64,000 nucleotides of DNA from Trueperaceae bacterium (GTDB lineage: Bacteria > Deinococcota > Deinococci > Deinococcales > Trueperaceae). The DNA lies in NCBI GenBank assembly GCA_023954415.1, contig JAMLIB010000004.1, forward strand, positions 248,001 to 312,000, written 5' to 3'. The notes under the pieces were generated by a model that saw only the letters and a program-made list of their open reading frames with translations, had not been told where the DNA came from and did not search any database. Shown here piece by piece: positions 19,601 through 37,583 of this stretch. The position numbers and the translations under genes are program-made. Each line of letters opens with the position of its first letter. Within the stretch, counting starts at the first letter, position 1.

Positions 19601-21421
19601 ATGGAGCGCGACGAACTCGTCGCAGTGGCTCTGGGTGAGCGGCCAGCCGGCTTGGTCATCCGCGGCGGCAGGCTGGTGAACGTCTACTCGGGCGAGATCT
19701 ACGCGGCGGACGTCGCGGTCATGGGGGAGAGGATAGCGGCCGTCGGGGACGTCGACCGGTGTGTTGGCCCCGACACCGCGGTCGTCGACGCGAGCGGTAG
19801 GTACCTCGTCCCCGGGTTCATCGAGACGCACTTCCACGTCGGTGCCACGTCGCTCGGTTCCACCGAGCTGGCCAAGCTGCTCGTACCGTACGGAACGGCG
19901 GCGATAGTCACCGACTTCACCGAGGCCACGAAGCTGAAGGGCGCCAAGGCCGCGCGCTTCTTCCTCGACGAGGCGAACCGGACGCCCCTCAAGGTCTATT
20001 TCTCGCCTTTCTACACGGCCATGCTCGGCACCGCCGAGCGCCCCGGCGTGTCGCCGGAAGAGTTCGAGGAGATGCTCGCCTGGCCCGAGTGCCTCGAGTT
20101 ACGCGAGTGGAACGTGCAGTCGCAGCGCCACGCCTCCCCGCTCGTGCGCGCTGCGGGCGAGAGCGCGCTGCGGCGCGGCAAGCTGCTGGCCGGCCATATG
20201 CGCGCGCAGCTGGGGGCCGTCCTGCAGGCGTCCGTCTCGGCGGGCACCCGGTCCGACCACGAGGCGTACACGCTGGAGGAGGCGGTCGAACGCATCCGCG
20301 CGGGCGTCGCCGTGCAGATCCGCTTCGGTTCGGCGCACTGGACCGAGACGTGGGACCTCCTGCGCGTGGTGACTGAGCGGCGGCTCGACCCGAGCCTCGT
20401 GATGTTCAGCACGGACGAGCAGGAGGTGGTCGACATCCGCGACCTCGGCTTCATGGACCATCGCGTAAGGCTGGCCATCGAGGCGGGCGTCGCGCCCGTC
20501 GAGGCCGTTCGGATGGCCTCGCTGAACCCGGCGCGCTACCTCGGGGTGACGGGCGACCTCGGCGGCGTCGCCCCCGGCCGCCTCGCCTTCGTCTCGCTCG
20601 TCGACGACCTCAGGTCGTTCGAGGTCACCGCGGTTGTCCACGGCGAGCAGGTCGTCGCGCGCGACCGGCGCTACCTCGGTGAGCTCGAGCGGCCCGAGTA
20701 CCCCGCCGACTACTACGGCACGGTCAAGCTCCGCGCCCCCCTGACGGCCGAGGACTTCCGCGTCCCCGTGGCGGCGGGCAGGACGACCGCGACGGTGCGG
20801 ACGATCGGCTTCGATCAGGCGGCCAGCGGCACCCGCGAGGTCTTCGTGGACGTGCCCGTGGTGTCGGGCGGCGCGGCGGCCGATCCGGCGAACGACGTGG
20901 TGAAGCTCGCCTCGTTCGAGCGGCTGGCGCGAAGCGGGAAGCGCGGTGTCGGCTTCGTGCGCGGGCTGGGCATGCGGCGCGGCGCGCTCGGCTTCACCTA
21001 CCATCCCGGCTCGTGCGACCTGGCGATCATCGGCTCCGACGACGCCGACATGGCCCTGGTCGGCAACCGGATAGCCGAGCTCGGCGGCGGGCTCGTGGTC
21101 GCGATCGACGGCGAGGTCGTCGCCGAGGTCCCGATGGGGCTCCTCGGCATCGTGTCTGACCGCCCCGTGGACGAGGTCGAGGCCGGCATGCGTCGCGCCA
21201 AGGAGATCATCGCCGGGGACCTAGGTATCGACTTCCCCGGCAACGTCTACCGCCTGGCGGTCCTGTTCATCCCGGGCGTCGCGCCCGAGCTGCGCATGGC
21301 GATCGACGGGCTGCTACGCATCGCGTACGCCGGGGACCGGCTCGACGTGAACGTCGTCCCGGTCGTGGTCGACGCGCCGGACGCCGGCGCCTCCGCGACC
21401 GCGGCCGAGAAGGGGAGATAG
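19601..21421 (+). CDS. Adenine-deaminase-family amidohydrolase, copy 1 of 3
   Basis: The 606-residue protein begins with an amidohydrolase beta-sandwich (LVIRGGRLVNVYSGEIYAAD), then the HxH metal motif in ETHFHVGATS, the RSDHEAYT motif, FSTDEQEVVDIRDLGFMDHR and the NPARYLGVTGDLGGVAPGR segment. A C-terminal adenine-deaminase-type domain ends it. It departs from true adenine deaminases: the DPHE motif reads DFTE, and GHxPGL reads GHMRAQL. The substrate is thus probably not adenine. SD GAAGGGAAGG precedes the ATG. It is the first of three tandem paralogues separated by 3 and -4 bases. Confidence 0.85.
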   Translation: MERDELVAVALGERPAGLVIRGGRLVNVYSGEIYAADVAVMGERIAAVGDVDRCVGPDTAVVDASGRYLVPGFIETHFHVGATSLGSTELAKLLVPYGTAAIVTDFTEATKLKGAKAARFFLDEANRTPLKVYFSPFYTAMLGTAERPGVSPEEFEEMLAWPECLELREWNVQSQRHASPLVRAAGESALRRGKLLAGHMRAQLGAVLQASVSAGTRSDHEAYTLEEAVERIRAGVAVQIRFGSAHWTETWDLLRVVTERRLDPSLVMFSTDEQEVVDIRDLGFMDHRVRLAIEAGVAPVEAVRMASLNPARYLGVTGDLGGVAPGRLAFVSLVDDLRSFEVTAVVHGEQVVARDRRYLGELERPEYPADYYGTVKLRAPLTAEDFRVPVAAGRTTATVRTIGFDQAASGTREVFVDVPVVSGGAAADPANDVVKLASFERLARSGKRGVGFVRGLGMRRGALGFTYHPGSCDLAIIGSDDADMALVGNRIAELGGGLVVAIDGEVVAEVPMGLLGIVSDRPVDEVEAGMRRAKEIIAGDLGIDFPGNVYRLAVLFIPGVAPELRMAIDGLLRIAYAGDRLDVNVVPVVVDAPDAGASATAAEKGR

Positions 21422-21424
21422 GCA

Positions 21425-23221
21425 GTGGAACGAGACGAACTGGTCGCGGTGGCGCTGGGCGAGAAGCCCGCCGGGCTCGTGATCCGTGGTGGGCGCCTTG
21501 TGAACGTCTACTCGGGTGAGATCTACTCCGCCGACGTCGCCGTTCTCGGCGATCGCATCGCGGCCGTTGGCGACGTCGACCGCTGCGTTGGCGAGGGCAC
21601 GAGGGTCGTCGAGGCCGGCGGCCGTTACCTCGTCCCGGGCTTCATCGAGGGGCACATCCATGTGGGGGCCACGTCCCTGGCGGTCACGGAGATGGCGAGG
21701 CTACTGGTGCCTTACGGCACCGCCGCCATCGTCACGGACTTCAACGAGGCCACCAAGGTCCAAGGGCCGCAGGTGGCGCGCTACTACCTCGACGAGGCCA
21801 AGCGCACGCCGATGACGGTCTACTACTCGCCCTTCCACACGAGCTTGATCCCCACGGACGGCCGCGAGGGCGTGACGCTCGAGCAGCTGGACGAGATGAT
21901 GAGTTGGCCGGAGGCCAAGGAGCTGCGCGAGTGGAACGTGCAGCAACACCGTAGTCCGAACGAGAAGGTGCGGCGGGCCGGCGAGATGGCCAGGGCGCAC
22001 GGACTGCGGCTGGCCGGGCACCTGCGGCTCTTCATGGACGGGCTGCTGCACGCCTCGGTCGCTTCCGGGGCCGTGTCCGACCACGAGACCTACACCGTCG
22101 AGGAGGCGGTGGAGAGGATCAGGGCCGGCGTGGCGCTCCAGATGCGCTTCGGCTCCGCTCACTGGCACGAGATCCACGACATCCTGCGGGTGGTCACCGA
22201 GCGCCGGTTGGACTCCAGCCTGATCATGTTCAGCACGGACGAGCAGGAGATCGTCGACGTGCGAGACCACGGTTTCCTCGACCACCGCGTCCGCATGGCC
22301 ATCGAGGCTGGCGTGGCTCCCATGGACGCCGTGCGCATGGCGTCGCTCAACCCGGCGCGCTACCTGGGCGTCACCGGCGACCTGGGCGGCATCGCGCCCG
22401 GTCGCAAGGCGTTCGTCAACCTCGTCGACGACATGCGCTCCTTCACCGTCACGGAGGTCGTCTACGGCGAGGAGGTCGTCGCCAAGGACCAGCGGTACGT
22501 GGCCGCGCTCGAGCGGCCCGAGTACCCGCGCGAGTTCTACGGCACGGTGAGGCTGAAGCGGCCGCTCACGGCGGAGGACTTCGCCATCGCCGCGCCGAGC
22601 GCCGCGGCCGCCACCGCCAAGGTACGCGTCATCGGTTTCCACCCGGAGGCCATGGGCACGAAGGAGGTCCACCTCGATCTGCCCGTGGTCGACGGCAAGG
22701 TGCAGGTGGACCTGGGCAGGCAGGTCGTGAAGCTCGCGTCCGTCGAGCGCATCGGGGGTATCGGCAAGCACGGCGTCGGCTTCGTGCAGGGCCTGCCCCT
22801 GCGGCGTGGCGCGTTGGGCTTCACCTACCACCCCGGGCCGTCCGAGCTCGCGCTCATCGGCACCAACGGGGAGGACATGGCGCTCGTCGGCAACAAGATC
22901 GCCGAGCTGGGCGGGGGCCTGGTGGTCGCCGTCGACGGCGAGGTCCTAGCTGCGGTGCCGATGCCCTTGCACGGCGTCGTGTCGGACGCCTCCGCCGAGG
23001 AGGTCGAGGCCGGCATGCGGCATGCCAAGCGGGTCATCGCCGACGTTCTCGGCATCGACTTCATCAGCAACTACTACCGGCTCACGGGCTTCTTCATCCC
23101 GGGCGTGTCGCCCGAACTGCGCATGTCCGTCAAGGGGTTGCTGAAGGTCGCCTACGCCGGCGACCAGCTGAAGGTCGAGCCCATCCCGGTGGTGATCGAC
23201 GGAGCGGGGCCGTCGGCATGA
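21425..23221 (+). CDS. Adenine-deaminase-family amidohydrolase, copy 2 of 3
   Basis: The 598-residue paralogue shows the same layout. The HxH reads EGHIHVGATSL, the DPHE position reads DFNE, the GHxPGL position reads GHLRLFM, and VSDHETYT and FSTDEQEIVDVRDHGFLDHR are kept. It is closest to copy 1, sharing the RFGSAHW stretch in the barrel. GTG at 21425 follows GGGGAGATAGGCA. It probably acts on the same or a related ring or amide compound, perhaps as a second subunit or with different specificity. All three genes are one transcription unit. Confidence 0.85.
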   Translation: MERDELVAVALGEKPAGLVIRGGRLVNVYSGEIYSADVAVLGDRIAAVGDVDRCVGEGTRVVEAGGRYLVPGFIEGHIHVGATSLAVTEMARLLVPYGTAAIVTDFNEATKVQGPQVARYYLDEAKRTPMTVYYSPFHTSLIPTDGREGVTLEQLDEMMSWPEAKELREWNVQQHRSPNEKVRRAGEMARAHGLRLAGHLRLFMDGLLHASVASGAVSDHETYTVEEAVERIRAGVALQMRFGSAHWHEIHDILRVVTERRLDSSLIMFSTDEQEIVDVRDHGFLDHRVRMAIEAGVAPMDAVRMASLNPARYLGVTGDLGGIAPGRKAFVNLVDDMRSFTVTEVVYGEEVVAKDQRYVAALERPEYPREFYGTVRLKRPLTAEDFAIAAPSAAAATAKVRVIGFHPEAMGTKEVHLDLPVVDGKVQVDLGRQVVKLASVERIGGIGKHGVGFVQGLPLRRGALGFTYHPGPSELALIGTNGEDMALVGNKIAELGGGLVVAVDGEVLAAVPMPLHGVVSDASAEEVEAGMRHAKRVIADVLGIDFISNYYRLTGFFIPGVSPELRMSVKGLLKVAYAGDQLKVEPIPVVIDGAGPSA

Positions 23222-25053
23222 GCAGCGTGGTCGGTATGGGGGCGGTCCCGGCGGACGACCGCGACGCCCTCGTCGCGGTGGCGCTCGGAGAACGGCCCGC
23301 CGACGCCGTGATCCGTGGCGGCAGGCTCGTGAACGTCTACACGGGCGAGGTACACCCGGCCGACGTGGCCATCCTCGGCGACCGGATCGCCGCCGTCGGC
23401 GAGGTAGGGCGTTGCCTCGGCCAGGACACGCGCGTAATCGAGGCGGACGGACGCTACCTGGTGCCAGGCTTCATCGAGACGCACATCCACGTGGGCGCCA
23501 CCTCCCTGACCATGACGGAGCTGGCGCGCCTGCTCGTGCCGTTCGGTACCGCTGCCCTGGTCACCGACTTCACGGAGGCGGGCAAGATGCGCGGCAAGCG
23601 GGCGATGCGCTTCTTCCTCGACGAGGCGAACCGCACGCCCCTCAAGGCCTACTTCTCGCCCTTCTACACGACCCTCATGGGCATCGAGGGGCGTCCGGGC
23701 GCCAGCATGGAGGACCTCGTCGAGATGCTCGAGTGGCCGGAGTGCGTCGAGCTGCGGGAATGGAACGTCTTCGCGCAACGCAACGACAACCCCGCCCTCG
23801 CGGGGCTCGGCCGGCTCGCTCGCAGCTACGGCAAACGCCTCTGCGGGCACCTGGACGGGCAGGCCGGACCGACCCTCCAGGCGAGCGTGGCGGCCGGCAG
23901 CCTCTCCGACCACGAGGTCGCCACCGAGCGGGAGCTCTTGGAGCGGCTCCGCCTCGGGCTCGCCGTGCAGGTGCGGTTCAGCTCGGGCGCCGACAACCTC
24001 GGGGTGCTAGCGGCGCTCGCCAGGGAGTGGGTCGACACGCGCAACGTCATGTTCGCCACGGACGAGGAGGACATCGACGACCTGGCGCGCCTGGGGCATC
24101 TCGACCACCGGATCCGCGCCGCCATCGGGATGGGCATACCGCCCGTCGCGGCGGTGCAGATGGCGACCATCAACGCGGCCACCTACCTAGGGATCGGAGG
24201 CGACCTGGGCGGCATAGCGCCGGGCCGGCGCGCGTTCGTGAACCTGGTCGACGACCTGCGGCGGTTCGCGGTCACCGAGGTGGTCGCCGGCAGCGCGGTG
24301 GTGGCGCGCGCGGGTCGGTACGTAGGCGAACTCGCCGCCCCCGAGTACCCCGGCGATTTCAGGGACACGATCAGGCTGAAGGCGCCGCCGAGCGCGGCCG
24401 ACTTCGTCGTCCCGGCGCCGGTCCCTTCCGACGAGGACGGCGTCGCGGCGCTCGTCATCGACATCCGGCCCTACGACGTGCGTACCGAGGCCCTGACCAT
24501 GACGCTGCCCGTGACCGCTGGCGCCGTGACGGCCAGTCCGGGGCTCGGGGTGGCCAAGGTCGCCATAGCGGAGCGGCACTTCGCCAGCGGGAAGATCGGT
24601 CGCGGGTTCGTCAGGGGGTTCGGGATAGCGCGTGGCGCCTTCGGGTCCTCGTACCACCCCGGCCCCCTGCACCTCGCCGTCGTGGGCATGGACGACCACG
24701 ACATGGCCGTGGTGGCCGCGCGGGTGGCCGAGCTGGGCGGCGGGTTCGTAGCGGCCGTCGGCGGGGAGGTGGTCGCCGAGGTGGCGCTGCCGATCCTGGG
24801 CTTCCTGACCTCCGAACCGGCCGAGGAGGTCGTCGAGGCGTTCCGCGTCGTCAAGCGGGCCGTTCGGGACGAGCTCGGCGGCGAGTTCGACGGTCTGTTC
24901 ACCGGCCTCGCCTACCTCTGCATGCCCGGGGTGCTGCCCGACGTGCGGATGACGGTCGACGGCCCCGTGAACGTCCGGCTGGGACGAGATCGCCTGACCG
25001 TCACCTCGGCGGACGCGTTCCCGAGTCCTGGCGCGGTAGGGCTAGAGGTATGA
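23218..25053 (+). CDS. Adenine-deaminase-family amidohydrolase, copy 3 of 3
   Basis: The 611-residue, most divergent copy has HxH in ETHIHVGATSL, DFTE at the DPHE position, GHLDGQAGP at GHxPGL, and LSDHEVAT. The histidine-tryptophan stretch shared by copies 1 and 2 (RFGSAHW) is replaced by RFSSGADN, so its active site probably differs. The ATG overlaps the copy 2 stop by four bases. It has 14 or so extra N-terminal residues compared with the others. The stop codon TGA at 25051-25053 abuts the operator of the next gene. Confidence 0.85.
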   Translation: MSSVVGMGAVPADDRDALVAVALGERPADAVIRGGRLVNVYTGEVHPADVAILGDRIAAVGEVGRCLGQDTRVIEADGRYLVPGFIETHIHVGATSLTMTELARLLVPFGTAALVTDFTEAGKMRGKRAMRFFLDEANRTPLKAYFSPFYTTLMGIEGRPGASMEDLVEMLEWPECVELREWNVFAQRNDNPALAGLGRLARSYGKRLCGHLDGQAGPTLQASVAAGSLSDHEVATERELLERLRLGLAVQVRFSSGADNLGVLAALAREWVDTRNVMFATDEEDIDDLARLGHLDHRIRAAIGMGIPPVAAVQMATINAATYLGIGGDLGGIAPGRRAFVNLVDDLRRFAVTEVVAGSAVVARAGRYVGELAAPEYPGDFRDTIRLKAPPSAADFVVPAPVPSDEDGVAALVIDIRPYDVRTEALTMTLPVTAGAVTASPGLGVAKVAIAERHFASGKIGRGFVRGFGIARGAFGSSYHPGPLHLAVVGMDDHDMAVVAARVAELGGGFVAAVGGEVVAEVALPILGFLTSEPAEEVVEAFRVVKRAVRDELGGEFDGLFTGLAYLCMPGVLPDVRMTVDGPVNVRLGRDRLTVTSADAFPSPGAVGLEV

Positions 25054-25140: not shown

Positions 25141-25860
25141 ATGACCGTGATCGAACCACTCAAGCAACAGCGGTTGTACGAGAAGGTGGCGGAGAAGTTG
25201 CAGGACCTGATCAGCACGGGCGAGTTGTCCGCGGGGGATCGCCTGCCGAACGAGCGCGCGCTCGCGGAGCAGTTCGGCGTGAGCCGCACCGTCATCCGTG
25301 AGGCCAGTAAGGCGCTCGCGGTCAAGGGCCTCATCGAGGTCCGGCCCGGCCAGGGCACGTTCGTCGTCGACGCCACGGGGGACACCCTGTCGCAGTCGTT
25401 CCAGACCATGCTTGGCCTCGACCCGGGGGTCGGCTCCCAGGAGAACCTGGTGGAGGTGAGGGAGATCCTCGAGCCGGAGATCGCCTACCGGGCCGCTCTC
25501 AGGGCCCGGCCGGAGGACATCCGGGCGCTGCAGCAGGCCGTCGCCGCCATGGACAAGTGGATGAACGACATGCCGCGCTACATCCAGGCGGACAACGCCT
25601 TCCACCTGGCGCTGGCCGTTGCCACGCAGAACGTCTTCGTGCCGCGCCTCATGGCGTCGGTCGTCGACGTGCTGCAGGAGCACCGCGGCCGCATCTTCCA
25701 CACGGACGGCGGCCCGGCTCGCGGGCAGGACCACCACAAGCGCATCCTGCGAGCCGTCGAGGAGGGCGCTCCCGAGGCGGCGCGCGAGGCGATGCGGAGT
25801 CATCTGGCGCAGGTACGTAGGGACAGCACGCAGCCCAAGCAAACCGCGGGGGTCCCGTGA
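25141..25860 (+). CDS. GntR-family transcriptional regulator, FadR (FCD) subfamily
   Basis: The 239-residue protein has an N-terminal winged helix (ISTGELSAGDRLPNERALAE, SRTVIREASKALAVKGLIEV). A C-terminal FCD domain follows, with its helical histidines in NAFHLALAV, DHHKRIL and MRSHLAQV that bind a metal and a carboxylate effector. ATG at 25141 has GGGGGAAGGG in front and is preferred over a longer reading that begins inside the operator. Three TGGT-N3-ACCA-like sites in the window (17348, 17573, 25054) flank exactly the genes around it. It probably represses the cluster until the substrate or a metabolite is bound. Confidence 0.9.
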   Translation: MTVIEPLKQQRLYEKVAEKLQDLISTGELSAGDRLPNERALAEQFGVSRTVIREASKALAVKGLIEVRPGQGTFVVDATGDTLSQSFQTMLGLDPGVGSQENLVEVREILEPEIAYRAALRARPEDIRALQQAVAAMDKWMNDMPRYIQADNAFHLALAVATQNVFVPRLMASVVDVLQEHRGRIFHTDGGPARGQDHHKRILRAVEEGAPEAAREAMRSHLAQVRRDSTQPKQTAGVP

Positions 25861-25918: not shown

Positions 25919-26920
25919 GTGATCGAGACCAAGGAACCGTCCACTCACGGCGTGCCGCAGGTCGGCGCCGAGGTCGGCAGCCGCCTCTACAAGCAGATGT
26001 GGAGGATCCGCGTGTTCGAGGAGCACGCGAACGAGCTCTACCTGGCGGGCAAGATGCCCGGGCTGACGCACCTCTACACCGGTCAGGAGGCCGTCGCGGT
26101 GGGCGTCTGCGAGGCGCTGGAGCGCGCGGACTACATCACGAGCACGCACCGCGGGCACGGTCACTGCGTGGCCAAGGGCGCCAGGCTCGACCTGATGTTC
26201 GCCGAGCTCCTCGGCCGCAGTCCGGGCTACAACCGCGGCAAGGGCGGCTCGATGCACATCGCCGACCAGGAGAACGGCAACCTCGGCGCCAACGCCATCG
26301 TGGGCGGCAGCGCCGGCATCGCCACTGGCGCCGCCCTCTCGGCGAAGATGCGTGGCAGCGGCCAGGTGGCCGTCTGCTTCTTCGGGGAGGGCGCTCTCGG
26401 TCAGGGCCTGCTCAACGAAGTGATGAACATGGCTCAGCTTTGGAAGCTACCCGTCATCTACGTGTGCGAGAACAACCGCTACGGTGAGTACACGCACTTC
26501 AGCGAGACCACCGCCGGCACGGTTCGCGGCCGGGCCGAGGCGCTCGGCATGCGGGCCTTCGAGGTCGACGGGCAGGACGTCATCGGCGTCAACGAGCTGC
26601 TGACGCGGCTGGTGGCTTCCGCCAGGACCGGTGGCGGCCCGGCGCTCGTCGAGTGCCACACGTACCGCTACCACGGCCACCACGTGGGCGACATCAACCG
26701 CGAGTACTACCGGCCCAAGGCCGAGGAGCTCGAGTGGCGCGAGCGGCGCGACCCCATCAAGCTCTTCGGGGAGCGGCTCGTGGCGGCCGGTCTGGCGAGC
26801 GCCGAGGAGTTGGCCGCGATGCAGGCCGCCGTGCGTGAGGAGGCGGCCGCCGCGCTGGCCTTCGCTCTCGCCGCGCCGTTCCCGGACCCGAGCGAGGTGA
26901 CGCTTCATGTCTACGCTTGA
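25919..26920 (+). CDS. Thiamin-diphosphate dehydrogenase E1 alpha subunit (pyruvate/acetoin dehydrogenase type)
   Basis: The 333-residue protein has the E1 alpha fold: HLYTGQEAVAVGVCEAL, STHRGHGHCVAKGA, YNRGKGGSMHIAD and the ThDP/Mg motif GEGALGQGLLNEVMN ending in VCENNRYGEYT. GTG at 25919 follows GCGAGGAG. Such enzymes decarboxylate a 2-oxo acid or cleave acetoin and pass the acyl group to lipoyl-E2. The Y-R-Y-H-G-H-H stretch (CHTYRYHGHHVGD) is the usual phospho-loop region. It overlaps the beta gene by 14 bases and lies directly behind the regulator, so it belongs to the same regulon. Confidence 0.9.
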   Translation: MIETKEPSTHGVPQVGAEVGSRLYKQMWRIRVFEEHANELYLAGKMPGLTHLYTGQEAVAVGVCEALERADYITSTHRGHGHCVAKGARLDLMFAELLGRSPGYNRGKGGSMHIADQENGNLGANAIVGGSAGIATGAALSAKMRGSGQVAVCFFGEGALGQGLLNEVMNMAQLWKLPVIYVCENNRYGEYTHFSETTAGTVRGRAEALGMRAFEVDGQDVIGVNELLTRLVASARTGGGPALVECHTYRYHGHHVGDINREYYRPKAEELEWRERRDPIKLFGERLVAAGLASAEELAAMQAAVREEAAAALAFALAAPFPDPSEVTLHVYA

Positions 26921-27935
26921 AGCCCTGATCGCCGCGGCCCCACGGGACGCCGCGCGCGTCATCACGTTCTCGCAAGCCGTGCGCGAGGCGCTCGCCGAGG
27001 AGATGCGCCGCGACGAACGCGTCTTCATCATCGGCGAGGACGTCGCGGAGGCGGGCACGCCCTTCAAGGTCCTCTCGGGTCTGGTCGAGGAGTTCGGGCC
27101 CGGCCGGGTCATAGACACGCCGATATCCGAAGCGGGCTTCACCGGCCTCGCCGTCGGCGCCGCCATGACCGGGATGCGGCCGGTCGTCGACCTGATGTTC
27201 GGCGACTTCCTCACCCTGGTCATGGACCAGCTGGTCAACCAGGCGGCCAAGACGCACTACATGTCGGGCGGGAAGCTCAAGGTGCCGATGGTGCTCCGCA
27301 CGACCCTCGGCGCGACGCGGCGCTCGGCCGCGCAGCATAGTCAGAGCCTCCAGGCCTGGGTCAGCCACGTGCCGGGTCTCATCGTGGTCACCCCCTCCAC
27401 GCCGTACGACGCGAAGGGGCTCCTCAAGACGGCCATCAGGAACGACAACCCGGTGGTCTTCTTCGAGGACAAGATGGGCTACACGGACAAGGGCGAAGTG
27501 CCGGAAGGCGACTACTCGATCCCCTTCGGCGTCGCCGACGTGAAGCGCGTCGGCGAGCACGTCACGCTCGTCGCCACGAGCAGCATGGTGCAGGTCGCGC
27601 TCAAGGCGGCGGAGCGGCTCGAGCAGCTCGGCATCAGCGCGGAGGTCGTCGATCCGCGGACGCTCTTCCCGCTCGACAAGGAGACCCTCGTCGCGTCGGC
27701 GAGGAAGACGGGCCACGCGATCGTCATCGACGAAGGTTACGAGCGTTACGGGGTGACGGCGGAGCTCGCCGCCGTCATAGCGGACGGCGCCTTCTACCAC
27801 CTGGACGCCCCCGTGAAGCGCCTAGGCGCCATGGACGTGCCGGTGCCCTTCTCTCCCACGCTGGAGGACGTGACCGTCCCCACCCCCGAAGTAGTCGTCG
27901 CGCTCACCAAGCGGTTGCTGGCCGGAGAGGCCTGA
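26907..27935 (+). CDS. Thiamin-diphosphate dehydrogenase E1 beta subunit
   Basis: The 342-residue partner of E1 alpha is recognisable from ITFSQAVREALAEEMRRDER, IIGEDVAEAGTPFKV, DTPISEAGFTGLAVGAAM and the transketolase C-terminal domain (STSEVVD-type region ISAEVVDPRTLFPLDKETL). It binds the pyrimidine side of thiamin diphosphate at the alpha-beta interface. GAGGTGA lies before the ATG. The first 17 residues are an extension. With E1 alpha it forms an alpha2beta2 tetramer. Substrate could be acetoin or a 2-oxo acid released by the amidohydrolase pathway (inference). Confidence 0.92.
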   Translation: MSTLEALIAAAPRDAARVITFSQAVREALAEEMRRDERVFIIGEDVAEAGTPFKVLSGLVEEFGPGRVIDTPISEAGFTGLAVGAAMTGMRPVVDLMFGDFLTLVMDQLVNQAAKTHYMSGGKLKVPMVLRTTLGATRRSAAQHSQSLQAWVSHVPGLIVVTPSTPYDAKGLLKTAIRNDNPVVFFEDKMGYTDKGEVPEGDYSIPFGVADVKRVGEHVTLVATSSMVQVALKAAERLEQLGISAEVVDPRTLFPLDKETLVASARKTGHAIVIDEGYERYGVTAELAAVIADGAFYHLDAPVKRLGAMDVPVPFSPTLEDVTVPTPEVVVALTKRLLAGEA

Positions 27936-27961: not shown

Positions 27962-29323
27962 ATGGCTATCCATACCTACGGCACGATGGGGGTCGACTGG
28001 GAGCAGAGGATCGACTTCGAGCGACTCCGCACCCAGCGCCTCGAGCGCATCAAGGCGGTGTTGGAGCGGTCGGAGGCCGGCGCCCTGCTGCTCTTCGACA
28101 TGAACAACGTGCGCTACGTGACCTCCACGCACATCGGTACGTGGGCGCAGGACAAGGTCGCGCGCTTCACCCTCCTGACCCGGGGTGGCGCTCCGATCCT
28201 CTGGGACTTCGGTTCCGCCGCCAGACACCACCAGCTCTACGCGCCGTGGCTGGACGGCGCCGAGCGTTCGAGGCCGGGCGTGTCCATGCTGCGCGGGACC
28301 ATCTCGCCGCAGATGGGCAGGGCCGAGAAGGTCGCGGCCGACATCTACCGGGAGCTGGCCGCGCGCGGCCTCGAGCGCGAGCCGGTCGCCATCGACCTGG
28401 TGGAGCTTCCGGTCCTCTTCGCCCTGCAGAAGCTCGGGCTCGAGGTCGTCGACGGGCAGCAGCTCATGCTCGAGGCCCGCAAGATCAAGACGGTCGACGA
28501 GATCTCGCTCCTGACGCACGCGGCCGGGATGGTGGACGGCGCGTACCAGCTCGTCTACGAGAACCTGCGTCCTGGTGTCAGGGAGAACGACATCGTCGGG
28601 CTCGTCACGAAGTTCCTGTACGAGCACGGGTCCGAGATGGTTGAGGGCGTGAACGCCATCAGCGGCGAGCGCTGCAACCCGCACCCGCACGTCGCCTCCG
28701 ATCGCATGTTGAGGCCGGGCGACCCGGCTTACTTCGACATCCTCCAGAGCTACATGGGCTACCGGACCTGCTACTACCGGACCTTCGTGGTGGGGAGCGC
28801 GTCGCGCGCGCAGGTGAGCGCCTACGACAAGTGCCGCGACCTGCTTGACCACGCCATCAGCCTCATCCGGCCCGGCGTCACGACGGCCGAGGTCGTCGAA
28901 GTGTGGCCGCGCGCGCAGGAGTTCGGCTTCCCGGACGAGGAGCTGGCATTCGCCCTGCAGTACGGTCACGGCATCGGCCTGAACATCTGGGAGAAGCCCA
29001 TCTTCAGCCGCCTCGTGTCGTTCGACCATCCGGAAGTGATCGAGGAGGGGATGGTCTTCGCGCTCGAGACGTTCTGGCCGGCGAGCGACGGCTGGTCCGC
29101 GGCCCGGATCGAGGAGGAGGTCGTCGTCACGAGCGACGGTTGCGAGATCATCTCGCGCTTCCCCGCCGAGCAGCTCATGGTCACCGGTCCCAGGTACTAC
29201 AGCACCGCGGGGCCGCTCCCCACGGTCAGGGACACCCAGTCGGCGCTCAACAACCCGAGGGTGGCCCCGCGCCTGCCGGCCGCGGACGCCGGTGCGGCGG
29301 GCGCCGGCGGCGCCGAGGGATGA
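27962..29323 (+). CDS. M24-family (creatinase/prolidase-like) protein with altered metal site
   Basis: The 453-residue protein has an N-terminal creatinase-type domain (ALLLFDMNNVRYVTSTHIG) and a C-terminal pita-bread domain. In metallopeptidases of this fold the two metals are held by D-x10-D, H, E and E. Here the first Asp is present in YFDILQSYMGYRTCYY, but the second Asp position, 11 residues on, is Cys. The His (YGHGIGLNIW) and both Glu (FALETFWP, ARIEEEVVV) remain. Such loss is like creatinase, which works without metal. I therefore favour a C-N hydrolase or lyase on a small molecule over an aminopeptidase. AAGGAG precedes the ATG. It sits between the E1 and E2 genes. Confidence 0.8.
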   Translation: MAIHTYGTMGVDWEQRIDFERLRTQRLERIKAVLERSEAGALLLFDMNNVRYVTSTHIGTWAQDKVARFTLLTRGGAPILWDFGSAARHHQLYAPWLDGAERSRPGVSMLRGTISPQMGRAEKVAADIYRELAARGLEREPVAIDLVELPVLFALQKLGLEVVDGQQLMLEARKIKTVDEISLLTHAAGMVDGAYQLVYENLRPGVRENDIVGLVTKFLYEHGSEMVEGVNAISGERCNPHPHVASDRMLRPGDPAYFDILQSYMGYRTCYYRTFVVGSASRAQVSAYDKCRDLLDHAISLIRPGVTTAEVVEVWPRAQEFGFPDEELAFALQYGHGIGLNIWEKPIFSRLVSFDHPEVIEEGMVFALETFWPASDGWSAARIEEEVVVTSDGCEIISRFPAEQLMVTGPRYYSTAGPLPTVRDTQSALNNPRVAPRLPAADAGAAGAGGAEG

Positions 29324-29341: not shown

Positions 29342-30661
29342 GTGAGCCGGAGCATGGCTAAGGACGTCATCATGCCTGCCCTGGGCATGGCGCAGGAGAG
29401 CGGCGTCCTCGTGAAGTGGCTCGTGGCCGAAGGCGCGAGCGTCAGCGAGGGCGACCCGCTCATGGAGGTCGAGACCGACAAGGCGATCGTCGAGGTACCG
29501 GCGACCGCCTCCGGGGTCCTCTCGTCCGTCGCCCACCGCGAGGGGGCCGAGGTCAAGATCGGCACGGTGCTGGCCGTGCTCCTGGCGCCGGGAGAGGAGG
29601 CGGGTGGCCCGTCACGAACGCCGAGCACGCCGCGCCCCTCCGCCGGGCTGGCCGCAGCGGTGGCAGCCCCCGCCGTCGCCACTTCACACGCCGTGGCGCT
29701 TACGCCGCCGCCCCTTCCCGCGCCGAGGGAAGCCAGCGGGCCTGGGGCGAGCGGCGGACGTCCGCTCGGCTCGCCGAAGGCCAAGCGGCTCGCCCGCCAG
29801 CGCGGCATCGCGTTGGAGGGGGTCGTCGGCACCGGCCCCGGCGGCGCGGTCAGGGCGGTGGACCTGGGCCTGCGCGCGCAGGCCGCGGCCGCGGGTATGC
29901 CGCGCACCTCAGCGGCATCCGCCCTCGACCCGCGCACGCACGCCGCGACCGCGGTTCCGGTGCCGGAGGCCGTACACGCCGTCGTCCCTGCCCCCGTCAC
30001 CGCGGCGGCGGTGCGCCGGTCGACCGAGGCGGCCGCCCTCGCGAGCGGCACGGCGTGGTGTCAGACGAGGCTCGATGCCGCGCGACTCATGGAGTTCCTC
30101 GAGAGAGCCAACTCTTCCGGGGCGCATGCCAAGCTCGGGACCGCATGGCCCGAGAGGATCGTGGCTGCCGACGTGTTGGTCAAGGCCCTCGTCGGTGCCT
30201 TGAGTCGCTCTGCTGGCCCGGACGCCGGAGCTTCGGCGGGCGGCGTCACGATCAACGTCTACTCCGCCACCGGGGAGGGGCGCGGCGTGGCCATCGGCGC
30301 CACGCAGACGCGTTCCGTCCTCGACGTCTCCCTCGCGCGCGAGGGTGCGGAGCCGGCGAGTGCCGGTGACGGGCGACGTCGGGACGAGGCCACGCCGCCC
30401 ATCGTCGTCGACGACCGCAGCGCGCAGGCCTTCGAGCAGTCGTCGGGGACGACGCTGCCCGCAGGGGTGCTGCTCAGGCTCACACTCGGACCCATCGCCG
30501 GCCCGGGCTCCGGACCGGGCGGTCCGGATGGCGGTCGGCGCGAAGCCAGCCTGCGGCTGGACTACGACTCGCTGGCACTGGGCGACCCCAAGGCGGCCGC
30601 CATCTTCTCCCACCTCGGCCGCGTCCTGGAGGACCCGTTCTCCTTGGCCGTCTACGGTTGA
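29342..30661 (+). CDS. Lipoyl-bearing E2-like protein with degenerate acyltransferase domain
   Basis: The 439-residue protein has an intact lipoyl domain (VETDKAIVEVPATASGVL, lipoyl lysine in TDKA), then a proline-alanine linker. A peripheral-subunit-binding domain follows (SPKAKRLARQRGIALEGVVG, GTGPGGAVRAVDL), then a C-terminal domain about 200 residues long. The catalytic HRxxDG motif of E2 enzymes should lie near the C-terminus; the aligned stretch reads RLDYDSLALGDPKAAAIF, so both the histidine and the Asp-Gly are lost. The core of the catalytic domain is also low-complexity. It may act only as lipoyl carrier and scaffold, or the gene may be decaying. No E3 gene is nearby. GTG at 29342 is used; ATG at 29354 is possible. 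Confidence 0.8.
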   Translation: MSRSMAKDVIMPALGMAQESGVLVKWLVAEGASVSEGDPLMEVETDKAIVEVPATASGVLSSVAHREGAEVKIGTVLAVLLAPGEEAGGPSRTPSTPRPSAGLAAAVAAPAVATSHAVALTPPPLPAPREASGPGASGGRPLGSPKAKRLARQRGIALEGVVGTGPGGAVRAVDLGLRAQAAAAGMPRTSAASALDPRTHAATAVPVPEAVHAVVPAPVTAAAVRRSTEAAALASGTAWCQTRLDAARLMEFLERANSSGAHAKLGTAWPERIVAADVLVKALVGALSRSAGPDAGASAGGVTINVYSATGEGRGVAIGATQTRSVLDVSLAREGAEPASAGDGRRRDEATPPIVVDDRSAQAFEQSSGTTLPAGVLLRLTLGPIAGPGSGPGGPDGGRREASLRLDYDSLALGDPKAAAIFSHLGRVLEDPFSLAVYG

Positions 30662-30685: not shown

Positions 30686-32131
30686 GTGAAAAGCATCTTC
30701 GAAGTCGAGGGGCGTTACCTCGGTCACGAGTGGGTCGCCGGCGACCGTACGTTCGACGTCACGAGCCCAGCTACGGGCGAGGTGATCGCCAGGGCCGCCG
30801 ATTGCGGTGCCGCCGAGGCCGCGGAGGCGGTGGACGTGGCCGAGCGGGCGTTCGCCGACTGGCGCGCTACCACCGCGTTCGCCCGCTCCGCGTTGCTTGA
30901 GCGGTGGGCCGACCTCATCCTCGAGCGGCAGACGGAGCTGGCCGAGCTGATGAGCGCGGAGATGGGCAAGCCGATCCGGGAGTCGCGCGGGGAGGTCGCC
31001 TACGCCGCCGGCTTCGTGAAGTGGTACGCGGAGGAGGCCAAGCGCGTCTACGGCGAGGCGTTCCCCAGCCACGTCGGCAACAAGCGCCTCTACGCCTTGA
31101 GGCAGCCGGTCGGGCCGGTGTTCGGCGTCACGCCGTGGAACTTCCCGGTGGCGATGGTGACCCGCAAGGCAGCGCCCGCCCTCGCGGCGGGCTGCACCTT
31201 CATCCTCAAGCCGGCCGAGCAGAGCCCCCTCTCGGCGTTGCTGACGGCCAAGCTGTGGCTGGACGCCGGCGGACCCGCGGGCACGCTGCAGGTCCTGACC
31301 GCCAGCGACCCCGTGCCGTTGTCCGACGTGCTGATCGCCGATCCGAGGATCAGGAAGGTGACCTTCACCGGGTCCACTCCGGTCGGCAAGATCCTCTACC
31401 GCAAGTCCGCCGAGACCGTGAAGCGCATCTCCCTCGAGCTCGGCGGGCACGCGCCGCTCATCGTCTTCGACGATGCCGACCTCGACGTGGCGGTCAGGGA
31501 GGCGATCGCCTGCAAGTACCGCAACTCCGGGCAGACGTGCGTCTGCACCAACCGCATCTACGTGCAGCGCGGCGTCCACGACGCGTTCGTGACCGCGTTC
31601 GCCGCGGCCAGTGAACGGCTGCGGGTCGGCGACCCGGCGCTCGATACCACGGACATAGGGCCACTGGTGGACGCCCAAGGCCTGACGAAGGTGCAGGAGC
31701 ACATGCGGGACGCCCTCGCCAAGGGGGCGTCCGTGGTCACTGGGGGCTCGGCGATCGAGGGGCTCTACTTCCGACCGACCGTCGTCACGGGGGTCGCGTC
31801 GGACATGCTCATGATGAACGAGGAGACGTTCGGTCCCGTCGCGCCGGTGAGCGTGTTCGACGACGAGACGGAGATCGTGCGCCTGGCGAACGACACCCCT
31901 TACGGCCTCGCCGCCTACGTCTTCACGAACGACCTGTCGCGCGCCCACCGCATGGCCGAGGCGCTGGATTACGGGATCGTCGGTATCAACGACGGCGTGC
32001 CGTCCACGCCGCAGGCCCCCTTCGGCGGCGTGAAGCAGTCGGGCATCGGTCGCGAGGGCGGCCCGTGGGGCATCGAGGAGTACCTGGAGATCAAGTACGT
32101 CTCCGTCGGGATCCGCACCAGCCCGAGCTGA
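30686..32131 (+). CDS. gabD: NAD(P)-dependent succinate-semialdehyde dehydrogenase family aldehyde dehydrogenase
   Basis: The 481-residue aldehyde dehydrogenase has the cofactor segment TPWNFPVAMVTRKAAPALAA, the general base glutamate in ISLELGGHAPLIVF, the catalytic cysteine in NSGQTCVCTNRIYVQ, and the GGVKQSGIGREGG C-terminal motif. Overall wording is that of GabD-type enzymes, which oxidise succinate semialdehyde to succinate; the exact aldehyde is inferred. The cysteine two residues after the nucleophile (TCVC) is usual in GabD. GTG at 30686 follows AGGAGG. It is the last gene of the catabolic operon, so the pathway probably yields a four-carbon semialdehyde or similar. Confidence 0.9.
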   Translation: MKSIFEVEGRYLGHEWVAGDRTFDVTSPATGEVIARAADCGAAEAAEAVDVAERAFADWRATTAFARSALLERWADLILERQTELAELMSAEMGKPIRESRGEVAYAAGFVKWYAEEAKRVYGEAFPSHVGNKRLYALRQPVGPVFGVTPWNFPVAMVTRKAAPALAAGCTFILKPAEQSPLSALLTAKLWLDAGGPAGTLQVLTASDPVPLSDVLIADPRIRKVTFTGSTPVGKILYRKSAETVKRISLELGGHAPLIVFDDADLDVAVREAIACKYRNSGQTCVCTNRIYVQRGVHDAFVTAFAAASERLRVGDPALDTTDIGPLVDAQGLTKVQEHMRDALAKGASVVTGGSAIEGLYFRPTVVTGVASDMLMMNEETFGPVAPVSVFDDETEIVRLANDTPYGLAAYVFTNDLSRAHRMAEALDYGIVGINDGVPSTPQAPFGGVKQSGIGREGGPWGIEEYLEIKYVSVGIRTSPS

Positions 32132-33251: not shown

Positions 33252-33739
33252 CAGAAGTGGTAGTTGACGCCCAGCGCGGCGCCGAACGTCGGGATCCGCG
33301 CCGGCGAGCCGTTGCCGAGGCCGAACGAGCCGCCCAGCGTCGCCTCGAGGAAGAGCCCCAAGGGCGCGAGACCGAAGTCGACGAAGCGGAACTCGCCGCC
33401 CGCCAGCGCGTGGATGTCGAGCCAGGCGCCGCCGTTGCCGAACTCGATGGCCGGCCCGGCCCCGAGGTAGACGGCGAAGGGGCCCTCGGCGGCCACCGTC
33501 GTCATGGCGTCGACGCCGATGCCGAAGTGCGCGCTGCCGCCGCTGGCCGTCACGCGGCCGCTGACGCGCAGGTCGAAGCCGTTGGACAACGCGTTCGCGA
33601 TGCCGTAGTGGAGCGTGACGCCGAGCGGGTAACCGCTCCTGACGCCGAACCAGTTCTGGGCGTTGGCGTTGCCGAAGAGGGCGAGGAGACAGAGGAGAGC
33701 TAGGGGGGCGAACACCCGACGGTGAGAGGTGAGGTTCAT
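33251..33739 (-). CDS. Small secreted beta-barrel-like outer-membrane protein
   Basis: The 162-residue product has a signal peptide ([20 protein letters not shown]). It then shows alternating hydrophobic/polar strands rich in glycine ([37 protein letters not shown]) and ends in the aromatic residue of ALGVNYHF, as outer-membrane barrels do. I do not recognise a named family. About eight strands fit the length. ATG at 33739 was chosen because it gives the signal peptide directly; a longer frame runs into the prpD promoter region. Confidence 0.7.
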
Positions 33740-33917
33740 GCCCGCCATTCTCCCGGATGTTCGGATGAGGTGGTGCCAAGAGTTCCACGTCTGCGGTCTC
33801 GTTGCGGCCTTCGCGTCCACGTGCCGTGGCGTGATCGCCGCGGCCTCGTCCCGGTCTTCCGCCCCGCTCGCCGCGGGGAGTTCGCCCGGACGGGCGGATG
33901 CTATCGTCCGTGAGACG

Positions 33918-35420
33918 ATGAAGTCCCATCAGGTCCGCACTTACAAGTCCGCCGAGCACCTGCCGCGCGAGGAGCAGCTCGCCTGGAAGCTCGCCGCGGT
34001 GGCAACCGACCCCGTTCCCCTCGAGCCTGCCGTGCTGGAGATGATCGGCAACCGGATCATCGACAACGCGTCCGTGGCCGTCGCCTCCCTGGCGAGGCGC
34101 CCGGTGGTGACCGCCCGCACGCAGGCGTTGGCTCACCCGCGCGCTCCCGGCGCCGCCGTCTTCGGCGTCGGCAACGCGCGCACGTTCTCGCCGGAGTGGG
34201 CCGCCTGGGCCAACGGCGTGGCCGTGCGCGAGCTCGACTACCACGACACCTTCCTGGCCGCCGACTACTCGCACCCCGGCGACAACATCCCGCCCATCCT
34301 CGCCGTCGCTCAGACGAAGGGGCTCGGCGGGCGCGACCTGGCGCGGGGCTTGGCCGCCGGCTACGAGCTGCAGATCGACCTCGTGAAGGGCATCTGCCTG
34401 CACGAGCACAAGATCGACCACATCGCCCACCTCGGCCCGTCGGCCGCCGGTGGCATCGCCGCCCTCCTCGACCTGAGCACGGAGACGGCCTACCAGGCCA
34501 TCCAGCAGGCCCTGCACGTCACCACCACCACGCGCCAGTCGCGCAAGGGCGAGATCTCGTCCTGGAAGGCCTACGCACCCGCCTTCGCGGGCAAGATGGC
34601 GATCGAGGCCGTCGACCGCACCATGCGCGGCGAGGGCGCGCCGTCGCCCGCGTACGAGGGCGAGGACGGCTTCATCGCGTGGCTCCTCTCCGGGCCGCAG
34701 GCGCGCTACACGGTGCCGCTGCCGGAAGCGGGCGAGCCGAAGCGCGCCATCCTCGACTCCTACACGAAGGAGCACTCCGCGGAGTACCAGAGCCAGGCGC
34801 TCATCGACCTCGCGCGGCGCATGGGGGCGAGGATCGCGGACACGGACGCCGTCGAGTCCGTCGTCATCCACACGAGCCACCACACCCACTACGTGATCGG
34901 CACCGGCTCGAACGACCCGCAGAAGTTCGACCCGACCGCCAGCCGGGAGACCCTCGACCATTCGATCATGTACATCTTCGCCGTCGCCCTCCAGGACCGC
35001 GCCTGGCACCACGAGCGCAGCTACGCTCCTGAGCGCGCGCAGCGGCCCGACACGGTGCGGCTGTGGCGCAAGGTCGGCACGGTCGAGGACGAGGAGTGGA
35101 CGCGGCGTTACCACTCGACGGACCCGAACGAGAAGGCCTTCGGTGGCCGCGTGGTGGTCACGCTGACGGACGGCACGGTCGTCGAGGACGAGATCGCTGT
35201 CGCCGACGCCCATCCGCTGGGCGCCAGGCCGTTCGCGCGGCAGCAGTACGTCGCGAAGTTCAGGACGCTGGCGGAAGGCGTGGTCGCCGAGGCCGAGCAG
35301 GCCAGGTTCCTGGAGCTGACGGCACGCCTCGGCGAGCTGACGCCCGCCGAGGTCGCGCAACTGAACGTGGTCGTGGCGCCGGAGAAGCTCGGTGGCGAGG
35401 CGCCGGCCGGGATCTTCTGA
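33918..35420 (+). CDS. prpD: 2-methylcitrate dehydratase, PrpD/MmgE family
   Basis: The 500-residue protein has the MmgE/PrpD fold: [43 protein letters not shown] with the conserved D-x-H-D motif, and [12 protein letters not shown]-like text. It dehydrates 2-methylcitrate to 2-methyl-cis-aconitate in propionyl-CoA oxidation. The ATG at 33918 follows a possible TATCGT element by ten bases and there is no ribosome site, so a very short leader is likely. A longer in-frame reading overlaps the divergent gene and is rejected. prpC and prpB follow. Confidence 0.93.
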
Positions 35421-35512
35421 ATGGAACGCCCTCCCGCTGCGGTCTTCGCGGCAAGGGCACTTCGGACGCAGGGGCCTACCAGCGGCCGCCCGTCCGAGCG
35501 GAGGTGAGTGAA

Positions 35513-36673
35513 GTGCGTCCAGAACCCGAGAGCGCGGCGCAGCAGCCGCGCGCCAAGAAGTCCGTCGCCCTATCGGGCGTGGTGGCCGGCAACACGGCCC
35601 TGTCAACGGTCGGCGCCAGCGGCGACGAGCTCCGCTACCGCGGCTACGACGTCAAGGAGCTGGCGGGCGCCTGCGAGTACGAGGAGGTCGCGCACCTCCT
35701 CATCCACGGCGCGCTGCCCGACGCGGCCCGACTGCGGGCCTACAAGGAGAAGCTGCGCTCCCTGCGGGGCCTGCCTGCCGCCGTCAAGACGGTGCTCGAG
35801 GCCATCCCGGCCGCCGCCCACCCGATGGACGTCATGCGCAGCGGCGTCTCGGCCCTCGGGTCCGTGCTGCCCGAGAACGAGGCGCACCCGGAAGCGGGCG
35901 CGCGCGACATCGCCGACCGCCTCATCGCCTCGCTCGGCTCCATGCTCATGTACTGGTACCACTGGGCCCACAAGGGCGAGCTCATCGACGTCGAGACCGA
36001 CGACGACAGCGTCGGCGGCCACTTCCTTAGGCTCCTGCGCGGCAAGGAGCCTAAGGAGAGCTGGGTGCGCGCCATGCACCGCTCGCTCATCCTCTACGCG
36101 GAGCACGAGTTCAACGCCTCCACCTTCACGTGCCGGATGATCGCCGGCACGGGCTCGGACGTCTACTCCGCCGTCTGCGGCGGCATCGGCGCCCTGCGCG
36201 GGCCCAAGCACGGCGGGGCGAACGAGGTCGCGTTCGAGATCCAGCGGCGCTACGCCTCGCCTGACGCGGCCCAGGCCGACATCCTCGCGCGCCTCGAGAA
36301 GCGCGAGGTCGTGATCGGCTTCGGGCACCCCGTATACCGCGTCAGCGACCCGCGTTCGGACATCATCAAGGCGGTGGCCCTCGGGCTGGCCGAGGAGGCC
36401 GGCGACGAGCGCACGTACCGCGTCGCCGAGCGGATCGAGACGGTCATGCACGACTCCAAGCGCATGTTCCCGAACCTCGACTGGTACTCGGCCGTCGCGT
36501 ACTCAGCCATGAACGTGCCGACCGCCATGTTCACGCCGCTCTTCGTCATCGCCCGCACGGCGGGCTGGGTGGCGCACGTCATCGAGCAGCGCGAGGACGG
36601 CACGATCATCCGCCCCTCGGCCAACTACACCGGCCCGGGCGACCGCGCCTTCGTGCCCGTCGGCGAGCGGTAG
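35513..36673 (+). CDS. prpC: Citrate/2-methylcitrate synthase
   Basis: The 386-residue citrate-synthase-family enzyme has the active-site histidines in [10 protein letters not shown] and GPKHGGANE and the [13 protein letters not shown] segment. The aspartate is expected in the [15 protein letters not shown] region (NLDWYSA). It joins propionyl-CoA (or acetyl-CoA) to oxaloacetate. Its place between prpD and prpB argues for 2-methylcitrate synthase. GTG at 35513 has GGAGGTGA in front; a GTG nine bases earlier is a second choice. About 25 residues before the fold are an unusual charged extension. Confidence 0.92.
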
Positions 36674-36680
36674 GCGGCGC

Positions 36681-37583
36681 GTGCCCTACCTGGTCGCCGC
36701 CGACCTCCCGAGCGAGCGCCCCGGCGCCCGGCTGCGGGCGCTCCTGGCCCGGCCGGGCATCGTGCCCATGCCGGGCGCGCACAACGGCATGGCCGCGCTT
36801 CAGGCGCGCGCCGCGGGCTTCGACGCGCTCTACCTCTCGGGCGCCGCCATGAGCGCCTCCATGGGCCTGCCCGACCTCGGCATCATCACCATCGACGACG
36901 TCTGCTTCTTCATCCGCCAGGTCGCGCGCGCCGGGCTGCCCGTGCTCGTGGACGGCGACACGGGCTACGGCGAGGCGCTCAACGTCATGCAGATGGTCCG
37001 CGCCTTCGAGGCCGCCGGCGCGGCGGCGGTGCACATCGAGGACCAGCAACTCCCCAAGAAGTGCGGTCACCTCAACGACAAGCGCCTCGTGAGCGCGGAC
37101 GACATGGCCCTGAAGGTCGCCGCCGCGCGCAAGGCCGCCACCGACCTCGTGGTCGTGGCCCGGACGGACGCCGTGGCCAGCGAGGGGCTGAGCGCCGCCA
37201 TCGCGCGGGCCGAGCGCTACGTCGCCGCCGGCGCCGAGGTCGTCTTCCCTGAGGCCCTCACCACGCCGGCCATGTTCCGTGAGTTCGCGGCCGCCCTCCC
37301 TGGCGTGGCGCTCCTCGCCAACATGACCGAGTTCGGGCGCACCCCCATGCTGAGCGCCGCCGAGTTCGAGGAGCTGGGCTACAAGATCGTCATCTGGCCC
37401 GTCACGTCATTGCGCATGGCCAACAAGGCGCAGGCCGAGCTGTACGCCACGCTGAAGCTAGAGGGCAGCGCGCAGGCGCTCCTGCCGCGCATGCAGACGC
37501 GCGCCGAGCTGTACGCCACGATCGATCTGGAAGCGTACGAGGCTCTCGACGCCGCCATCGTGAGGACCGTGCTTCCCTCCTAG
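36681..37583 (+). CDS. prpB: 2-methylisocitrate lyase
   Basis: The 300-residue isocitrate-lyase-superfamily enzyme has the PrpB hallmarks: MPGAHNGMAALQARAAGFDA, LVDGDTGYGEALNVMQ, the catalytic loop QQLPKKCGHLNDK, and VVARTDAVASEGL. It cleaves 2-methylisocitrate to pyruvate and succinate, the last step of the methylcitrate cycle. GTG at 36681 lies seven bases after the prpC stop. With prpD and prpC this gives the dedicated methylcitrate enzymes apart from propionyl-CoA synthetase, which is not in the window. Confidence 0.95.
   Translation: MPYLVAADLPSERPGARLRALLARPGIVPMPGAHNGMAALQARAAGFDALYLSGAAMSASMGLPDLGIITIDDVCFFIRQVARAGLPVLVDGDTGYGEALNVMQMVRAFEAAGAAAVHIEDQQLPKKCGHLNDKRLVSADDMALKVAAARKAATDLVVVARTDAVASEGLSAAIARAERYVAAGAEVVFPEALTTPAMFREFAAALPGVALLANMTEFGRTPMLSAAEFEELGYKIVIWPVTSLRMANKAQAELYATLKLEGSAQALLPRMQTRAELYATIDLEAYEALDAAIVRTVLPS

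Follow-up and report, generated by a model that had tools for sequence, protein, structure and literature searches.

The window, a 64,000-nucleotide stretch of Trueperaceae DNA, encodes a pseudo-E2, an E2-like lipoyl carrier that lacks the catalytic transferase domain, within a conserved cluster that also encodes E1-alpha and E1-beta. The lipoyl arm and the transferase of 2-oxoacid dehydrogenase complexes are normally located on one E2 chain. Homologous clusters in Rhodobacterales feature a comparable lipoyl protein and, two genes downstream, an E2 with an intact catalytic domain and no lipoyl domain. This arrangement suggests that E2 is divided into an E3BP-like lipoyl carrier and a separate transferase, and that acyl-CoA is probably still made.

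The pseudo-E2 and its C-terminal domain

The cluster genes and the features of the pseudo-E2 are as follows.

25141..25860, + strand: GntR/FCD-type regulator, first gene of the conserved Trueperaceae cluster (Pfam GntR 86 bits, FCD 96 bits)
25919..26920, + strand: E1-alpha, thiamine diphosphate-dependent (PF00676, 248 bits; start at 25919, 25952 or 25997)
26907..27935, + strand: E1-beta (Pfam transketolase pyrimidine and C-terminal domains)
27962..29323, + strand: M24-family hydrolase with a creatinase/prolidase fold, the best synteny marker of the cluster (PF00557, 130 bits)
29354..30661, + strand: pseudo-E2, a lipoyl carrier similar to E2 but lacking the catalytic transferase domain
29363..29581, + strand: lipoyl domain (Biotin_lipoyl, PF00364, 68 bits in Pfam; dN/dS 0.19 against the orthologue G005)
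29480-29482, + strand: lipoyl-accepting lysine, within VETDKA
29771..29863, + strand: peripheral subunit (E1/E3)-binding domain (E3_binding, PF02817, 33 bits; dN/dS 0.25)
30032..30658, + strand: degenerate remnant of the acyltransferase domain (no PF00198; weak profile match in the last 34 residues; dN/dS 0.42)
30560..30586, + strand: DYDSLALGD at the place of (S)YDHRVI(N/D)G in intact E2 (profile alignment; Ser at the position of the catalytic His)
30686..32131, + strand: aldehyde dehydrogenase, succinate-semialdehyde-dehydrogenase-like (PF00171, 559 bits)

The reading frame from 29342 to 30661 on the + strand is intact and open along its full length. The true start is probably the ATG at 29354, which gives a protein of 435 amino acids, because the homologues begin MAKDVIMP. 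The original prediction described the lipoyl and E1/E3-binding domains as intact, and the Pfam scores of 68 and 33 bits confirm this, the latter being above the PF02817 cut-off of 23.7 bits. The 2-oxoacid_dh domain (PF00198) is absent from the pseudo-E2 in Pfam even at E-values up to 10, and the NCBIfam E2 models match mainly the N-terminal part of the protein. A profile alignment of the C-terminal part, using 3 Trueperaceae sequences and 40 intact E2s, places LDYDSLALGDPKAAAIFSHLGRVLEDPFSL on LSYDHRVINGADAARF...ADP with an E-value of 1.3e-4 over 34 columns, and the homology of the window's C-terminal part to intact E2 rests on 34 residues. In this alignment DHRxx(D/N)G aligns as DSLALGD, the catalytic His is replaced by Ser, and the Asn/Asp-Gly is lost, which is the same replacement of DHRxxDG by DYDSLALGD that had been read from the letters. 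The original prediction depended on there being no alternative placement of a His-x3-Asp-Gly motif, and none of the six His residues of the pseudo-E2 has the H-x3-(D/N)-G spacing.

The window protein therefore resembles an E2 in its lipoyl domain with a lipoyl lysine and in its subunit-binding domain, and it lacks both features of the E2 catalytic domain, PF00198 and the DHRxx(D/N)G motif. The predicted loss of acyl transfer to CoA by this polypeptide itself is strongly supported at the level of sequence. A frameshift or a misread frame behind the motif loss is ruled out by a frame that is open along its whole length and by the same loss in relatives. The catalytic core had also been described as low-complexity; this holds for the window protein and for its 70% identical relative, but the more distant orthologue L010 is less simple in sequence and the motif is equally absent from it. 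AlphaFold2 models of the window and L010 pseudo-E2 have a mean pLDDT of 33 and are unusable.

Orthologues and selection in Trueperaceae

Orthologues with the same loss, for which a search had been proposed, were found as two full-length Trueperaceae proteins and 44 Rhodobacterales homologues. The protein from G005 (L016), of the same genus, is 70% identical to that of the window, and the protein from another Trueperaceae genus (L010, on the same contig as G028 C34) is 36% identical. Both feature the same architecture and lack the motif. The same cluster is present in a fourth Trueperaceae genome, G019, where a contig end falls inside the pseudo-E2 gene. The M24 hydrolase was detected at an E-value of 1e-90 in only 4 of 111 Deinococcota genomes, and the same four carry the pseudo-E2. 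Homologues of the GntR/FCD regulator are located at the equivalent position in L066, L065 and L010, and nearly all homologous loci have the aldehyde dehydrogenase after the pseudo-E2.

Three tandem adenine-deaminase-like amidohydrolases, mutually 52-69% identical, lie before the cluster (19601-25053) and are preceded by a family 5 solute-binding protein (17826-19508). Two such amidohydrolases are present in the G005 stretch that was fetched, and none at the L010 and G019 cluster loci. Downstream, prpD-, prpC- and prpB-like genes of the 2-methylcitrate cycle (33729-37583) occur in the same order in G005 and not in L010.

Comparison of the window with G005 determined a dN/dS of 0.43 for the whole pseudo-E2, versus 0.04-0.12 for the neighbouring M24, E1-beta and aldehyde dehydrogenase genes. 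Within the protein the lipoyl domain has a ratio of 0.19 and the binding domain 0.25, compared with 0.42 in the C-terminal part and 0.57-0.81 in the linkers. The much faster evolution relative to the neighbours is what would be expected of a gene in decay, in which a formerly complete E2 is being lost. Decay is nevertheless highly improbable, given that the frame is still open at 70% and 36% protein identity, that the lipoyl and docking domains are under purifying selection, and that the 44 Rhodobacterales homologues have the same loss. The pattern of dN/dS and the retention of the motif loss in orthologues therefore indicate that the pseudo-E2 is not a pseudogene but a functional protein that evolves fast and is weakly constrained in its C-terminal part.

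Rhodobacterales clusters and their kinship to the window

Rhodobacterales plasmids with related clusters were found by using the M24 neighbour as a marker. Their gene order is M24, E1-alpha, E1-beta, lipoyl protein, aldehyde dehydrogenase and E2, with E3 in some. In the lipoyl protein, which corresponds to the pseudo-E2 of the window, one or two lipoyl domains are combined with a subunit-binding domain and with a C-terminal domain that is shortened and lacks the motif, whereas the E2 located two genes downstream, of ~292 amino acids, features an N-terminal subunit-binding domain, a full PF00198 domain (253 bits) and the motif DHRVING, and has no lipoyl domain. At an E-value of 1e-40 the lipoyl protein is present in 60 of 391 sampled genomes of the order to which G111 (Pseudophaeobacter) belongs. 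The pairing was determined at 44 loci, of which 40 are from genomes and 4 from plasmids. All 44 lipoyl proteins have one or two lipoyl lysine motifs, versus none of the 41 lipoyl-less E2s, and HRxxDG is absent from every one of the 44 lipoyl proteins. The order M24, E1-alpha, E1-beta, pseudo-E2, aldehyde dehydrogenase, catalytic E2 is found at 41 of the 44 loci, and DHRxxNG is present in each of the 40 complete lipoyl-less E2s from the 41 loci with the gene. The three remaining loci are one cut by a contig end (L137) and two second copies beside a complete cluster (L140 and L141). All 18 plasmids with a full-length pseudo-E2 also carry the catalytic E2. Judged by gene and domain content, E2 function in Rhodobacterales is cleanly divided between two genes. 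The second copies at L140 and L141 have a single-lipoyl pseudo-E2, and their host genomes, G331 and G377, hold another complete cluster.

The short 'E2 subunit' matches on Phaeobacter DOK1-1 and Aminobacter plasmids are really E2s of ~420-430 amino acids that adjoin mdeB. Actinobacterial plasmids carry M24 homologues of ~63-67% identity with no adjoining E1-E2 cluster; those on L049, L050, L051 and L054 are located near RidA, enoyl-CoA hydratase or lipoamide dehydrogenase. The M24 marker was not found in viral contigs. The C-terminal profile matched no more than four genomes among 385 Alphaproteobacteria, and two of these had also come up in the Rhodobacterales search.

The Trueperaceae and Rhodobacterales clusters are related through their E1 genes. 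The window E1-beta shares 71-73.5% identity with its counterparts on exactly the 18 pseudo-E2 plasmids, and the next best plasmid match is 57.5% identical. In the tree the cluster E1-betas of both groups form one clade (96/98) apart from that of Priestia, in which the E2 neighbouring the E1-beta is intact and features FDHRVIDG. The gene content is common to both groups and the position of M24 has moved. The C-terminal domains of the two groups match weakly in a profile alignment (E-value of 0.002), and because this homology is weak the motif could have been lost independently in each.

Proposed working and relation to known systems

The pseudo-E2 derives from E2 and would serve a dedicated E1 complex as its lipoyl carrier and docking subunit. 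E1 would cleave its substrate, presumably a 2-oxoacid or else an acyloin (for example acetoin), and acylate the lipoyl arm of this subunit. Acyloin cleavage yields an acyl group and an aldehyde, and the aldehyde dehydrogenase might, as a guess, fit such a reaction. The acylated arm would pass to a separate acyltransferase, which would form acyl-CoA, and the arm would then be re-oxidized by E3. The carrier and the transferase would work jointly, and in Rhodobacterales the latter would be the operon's own lipoyl-less E2. The most likely transferase in the window's genome would be the pyruvate dehydrogenase (PDH) E2 in trans, with a housekeeping E3.

By gene neighbourhood an active E2 stands beside the lipoyl protein in Rhodobacterales, while the window's genome has E2s of other complexes only. 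These number three, each of them intact and lipoyl-bearing, and no lipoyl-less E2 was detected in that genome. As originally noted, no E3 is adjacent; an E3 query has no match in the window, and three lipoamide-dehydrogenase-like genes are located elsewhere in the genome, two of them above the family cut-off. One of the E2 genes follows an E1 of ~940 amino acids whose position and length suggest the PDH AceE type. Among the Trueperaceae E2s, those of this PDH type come nearest to the Rhodobacterales transferase (~42% identity; 218-222 bits, with the others at 132-154 bits; in the window's genome 218 bits versus 136-154 bits), and the counterpart in the cluster-bearing genome G028 is the sole E2 detected there. 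A second E2 could be missing from the G028 assembly, because it is only ~95% complete. The PDH E2 is the most likely partner in trans in Trueperaceae, since it is both the nearest to the Rhodobacterales transferase and the sole E2 detected in G028. Two E2s of G019 were not counted as lipoyl-less because both are cut at contig edges: the apparent catalytic-only E2 on contig C95 is really a PDH-type E2 truncated where the contig ends, and the E2 on C96 begins at the contig edge. The latter (L064, 1-1320) is an intact E2 with DHRASDG and two subunit-binding domains, and an acyl carrier protein gene directly follows it.

The original prediction held that the lipoyl arm could deliver its acyl group to water or to another acceptor and that the E1-E2 pair may not make acyl-CoA. 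In Trueperaceae the complex would then be an oxidative decarboxylase or a lyase that releases the acid, and the absence of a catalytic E2 from the window, G005 and L010 clusters, together with the presence of an aldehyde dehydrogenase and a hydrolase, is consistent with such a fate. The intact lipoyl-less transferase of the homologous Rhodobacterales clusters and the three intact E2s of the window's genome weaken this proposal, and neither a thioesterase nor another acceptor protein is among the conserved genes of the cluster. Nothing in the data favours delivery to hydrolysis or to another acceptor, and this outcome is unlikely; it ranks below a divided E2 that forms acyl-CoA.

A stricter form of the divided E2 is a structural role similar to that of E3BP, in which the degenerate C-terminal domain joins or plugs into a core of active E2 and recruits either E1 or E3, the lipoyl arm being an addition. 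The terminal segment is conserved in the 44 Rhodobacterales sequences (26 columns at at least 85%, ending PLRHLL), the C-terminal part of the window protein evolves more slowly than its linkers, and the core domain of fungal E3BP is likewise reduced and inactive (PMC10156792). The domain is, however, strongly truncated in Rhodobacterales and of low complexity in the window protein, and this stricter form is less likely than not. The divided E2, with the pseudo-E2 as lipoyl carrier and a separate transferase, is the preferred reading. A broader proposal, plausible but tentative, is that an E3BP-like division of E2 evolved independently in bacteria into an inactive lipoyl-bearing and an active lipoyl-less E2, the inactive half plugging into the PDH transferase in Trueperaceae.

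Clusters with a divided E2 resemble acetoin dehydrogenase and PDH in their E1-alpha, E1-beta, lipoyl E2-like subunit and, in some, E3. They differ in the division of E2, with the lipoyl carrier separate from the catalytic protein where the latter is present, and in the extra M24 hydrolase. Actinobacterial OdhA is a transferase without a lipoyl domain that is served by lipoyl groups in trans (PMC7568260, PMC10415282). In the OdhA/KGD system with AceF, a transferase without its own lipoyl domain relies on the lipoyl groups of another protein. The transferase likewise has no lipoyl motif in all 41 Rhodobacterales loci with the partner gene, and there it would rely on the pseudo-E2. The OdhA transferase is fused to E1 and its donor, AceF, is itself an active E2, whereas the divided clusters have an inactive donor, a free-standing E2 as the transferase, and separate genes for E1 and E2.

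An inactive E2-like subunit, E3BP, is established in eukaryotic PDH (PMC10156792). The window protein shares with E3BP (PDHX, protein X) the order of lipoyl, subunit-binding and C-terminal domains and the loss of the catalytic His in an inactive C-terminal domain, which is reduced in fungi. The pseudo-E2 differs in being bacterial, and its active Rhodobacterales partner has no lipoyl domain, whereas the eukaryotic E2 keeps its own. In phmmer searches PDHX is matched through the lipoyl and binding domains only, and no better than E2. The likeness is assumed to be by convergence, and the window protein would be E3BP-like in its working and not a member of E3BP. Open-licence PubMed Central papers on lipoyl-less E2, bacterial E3BP and split E2 do not describe the pair. 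If the division is correct, the arm and the active site need no covalent link and E3BP-like subunits can arise outside eukaryotes. The reason that E3BP is catalytically dead is called unresolved in the study of fungal E3BP (PMC10156792), and the Phaeobacter plasmid cluster would then provide a small, genetically tractable test of it. The window E1-alpha is 65% identical to the E1-alpha of the Phaeobacter cluster.
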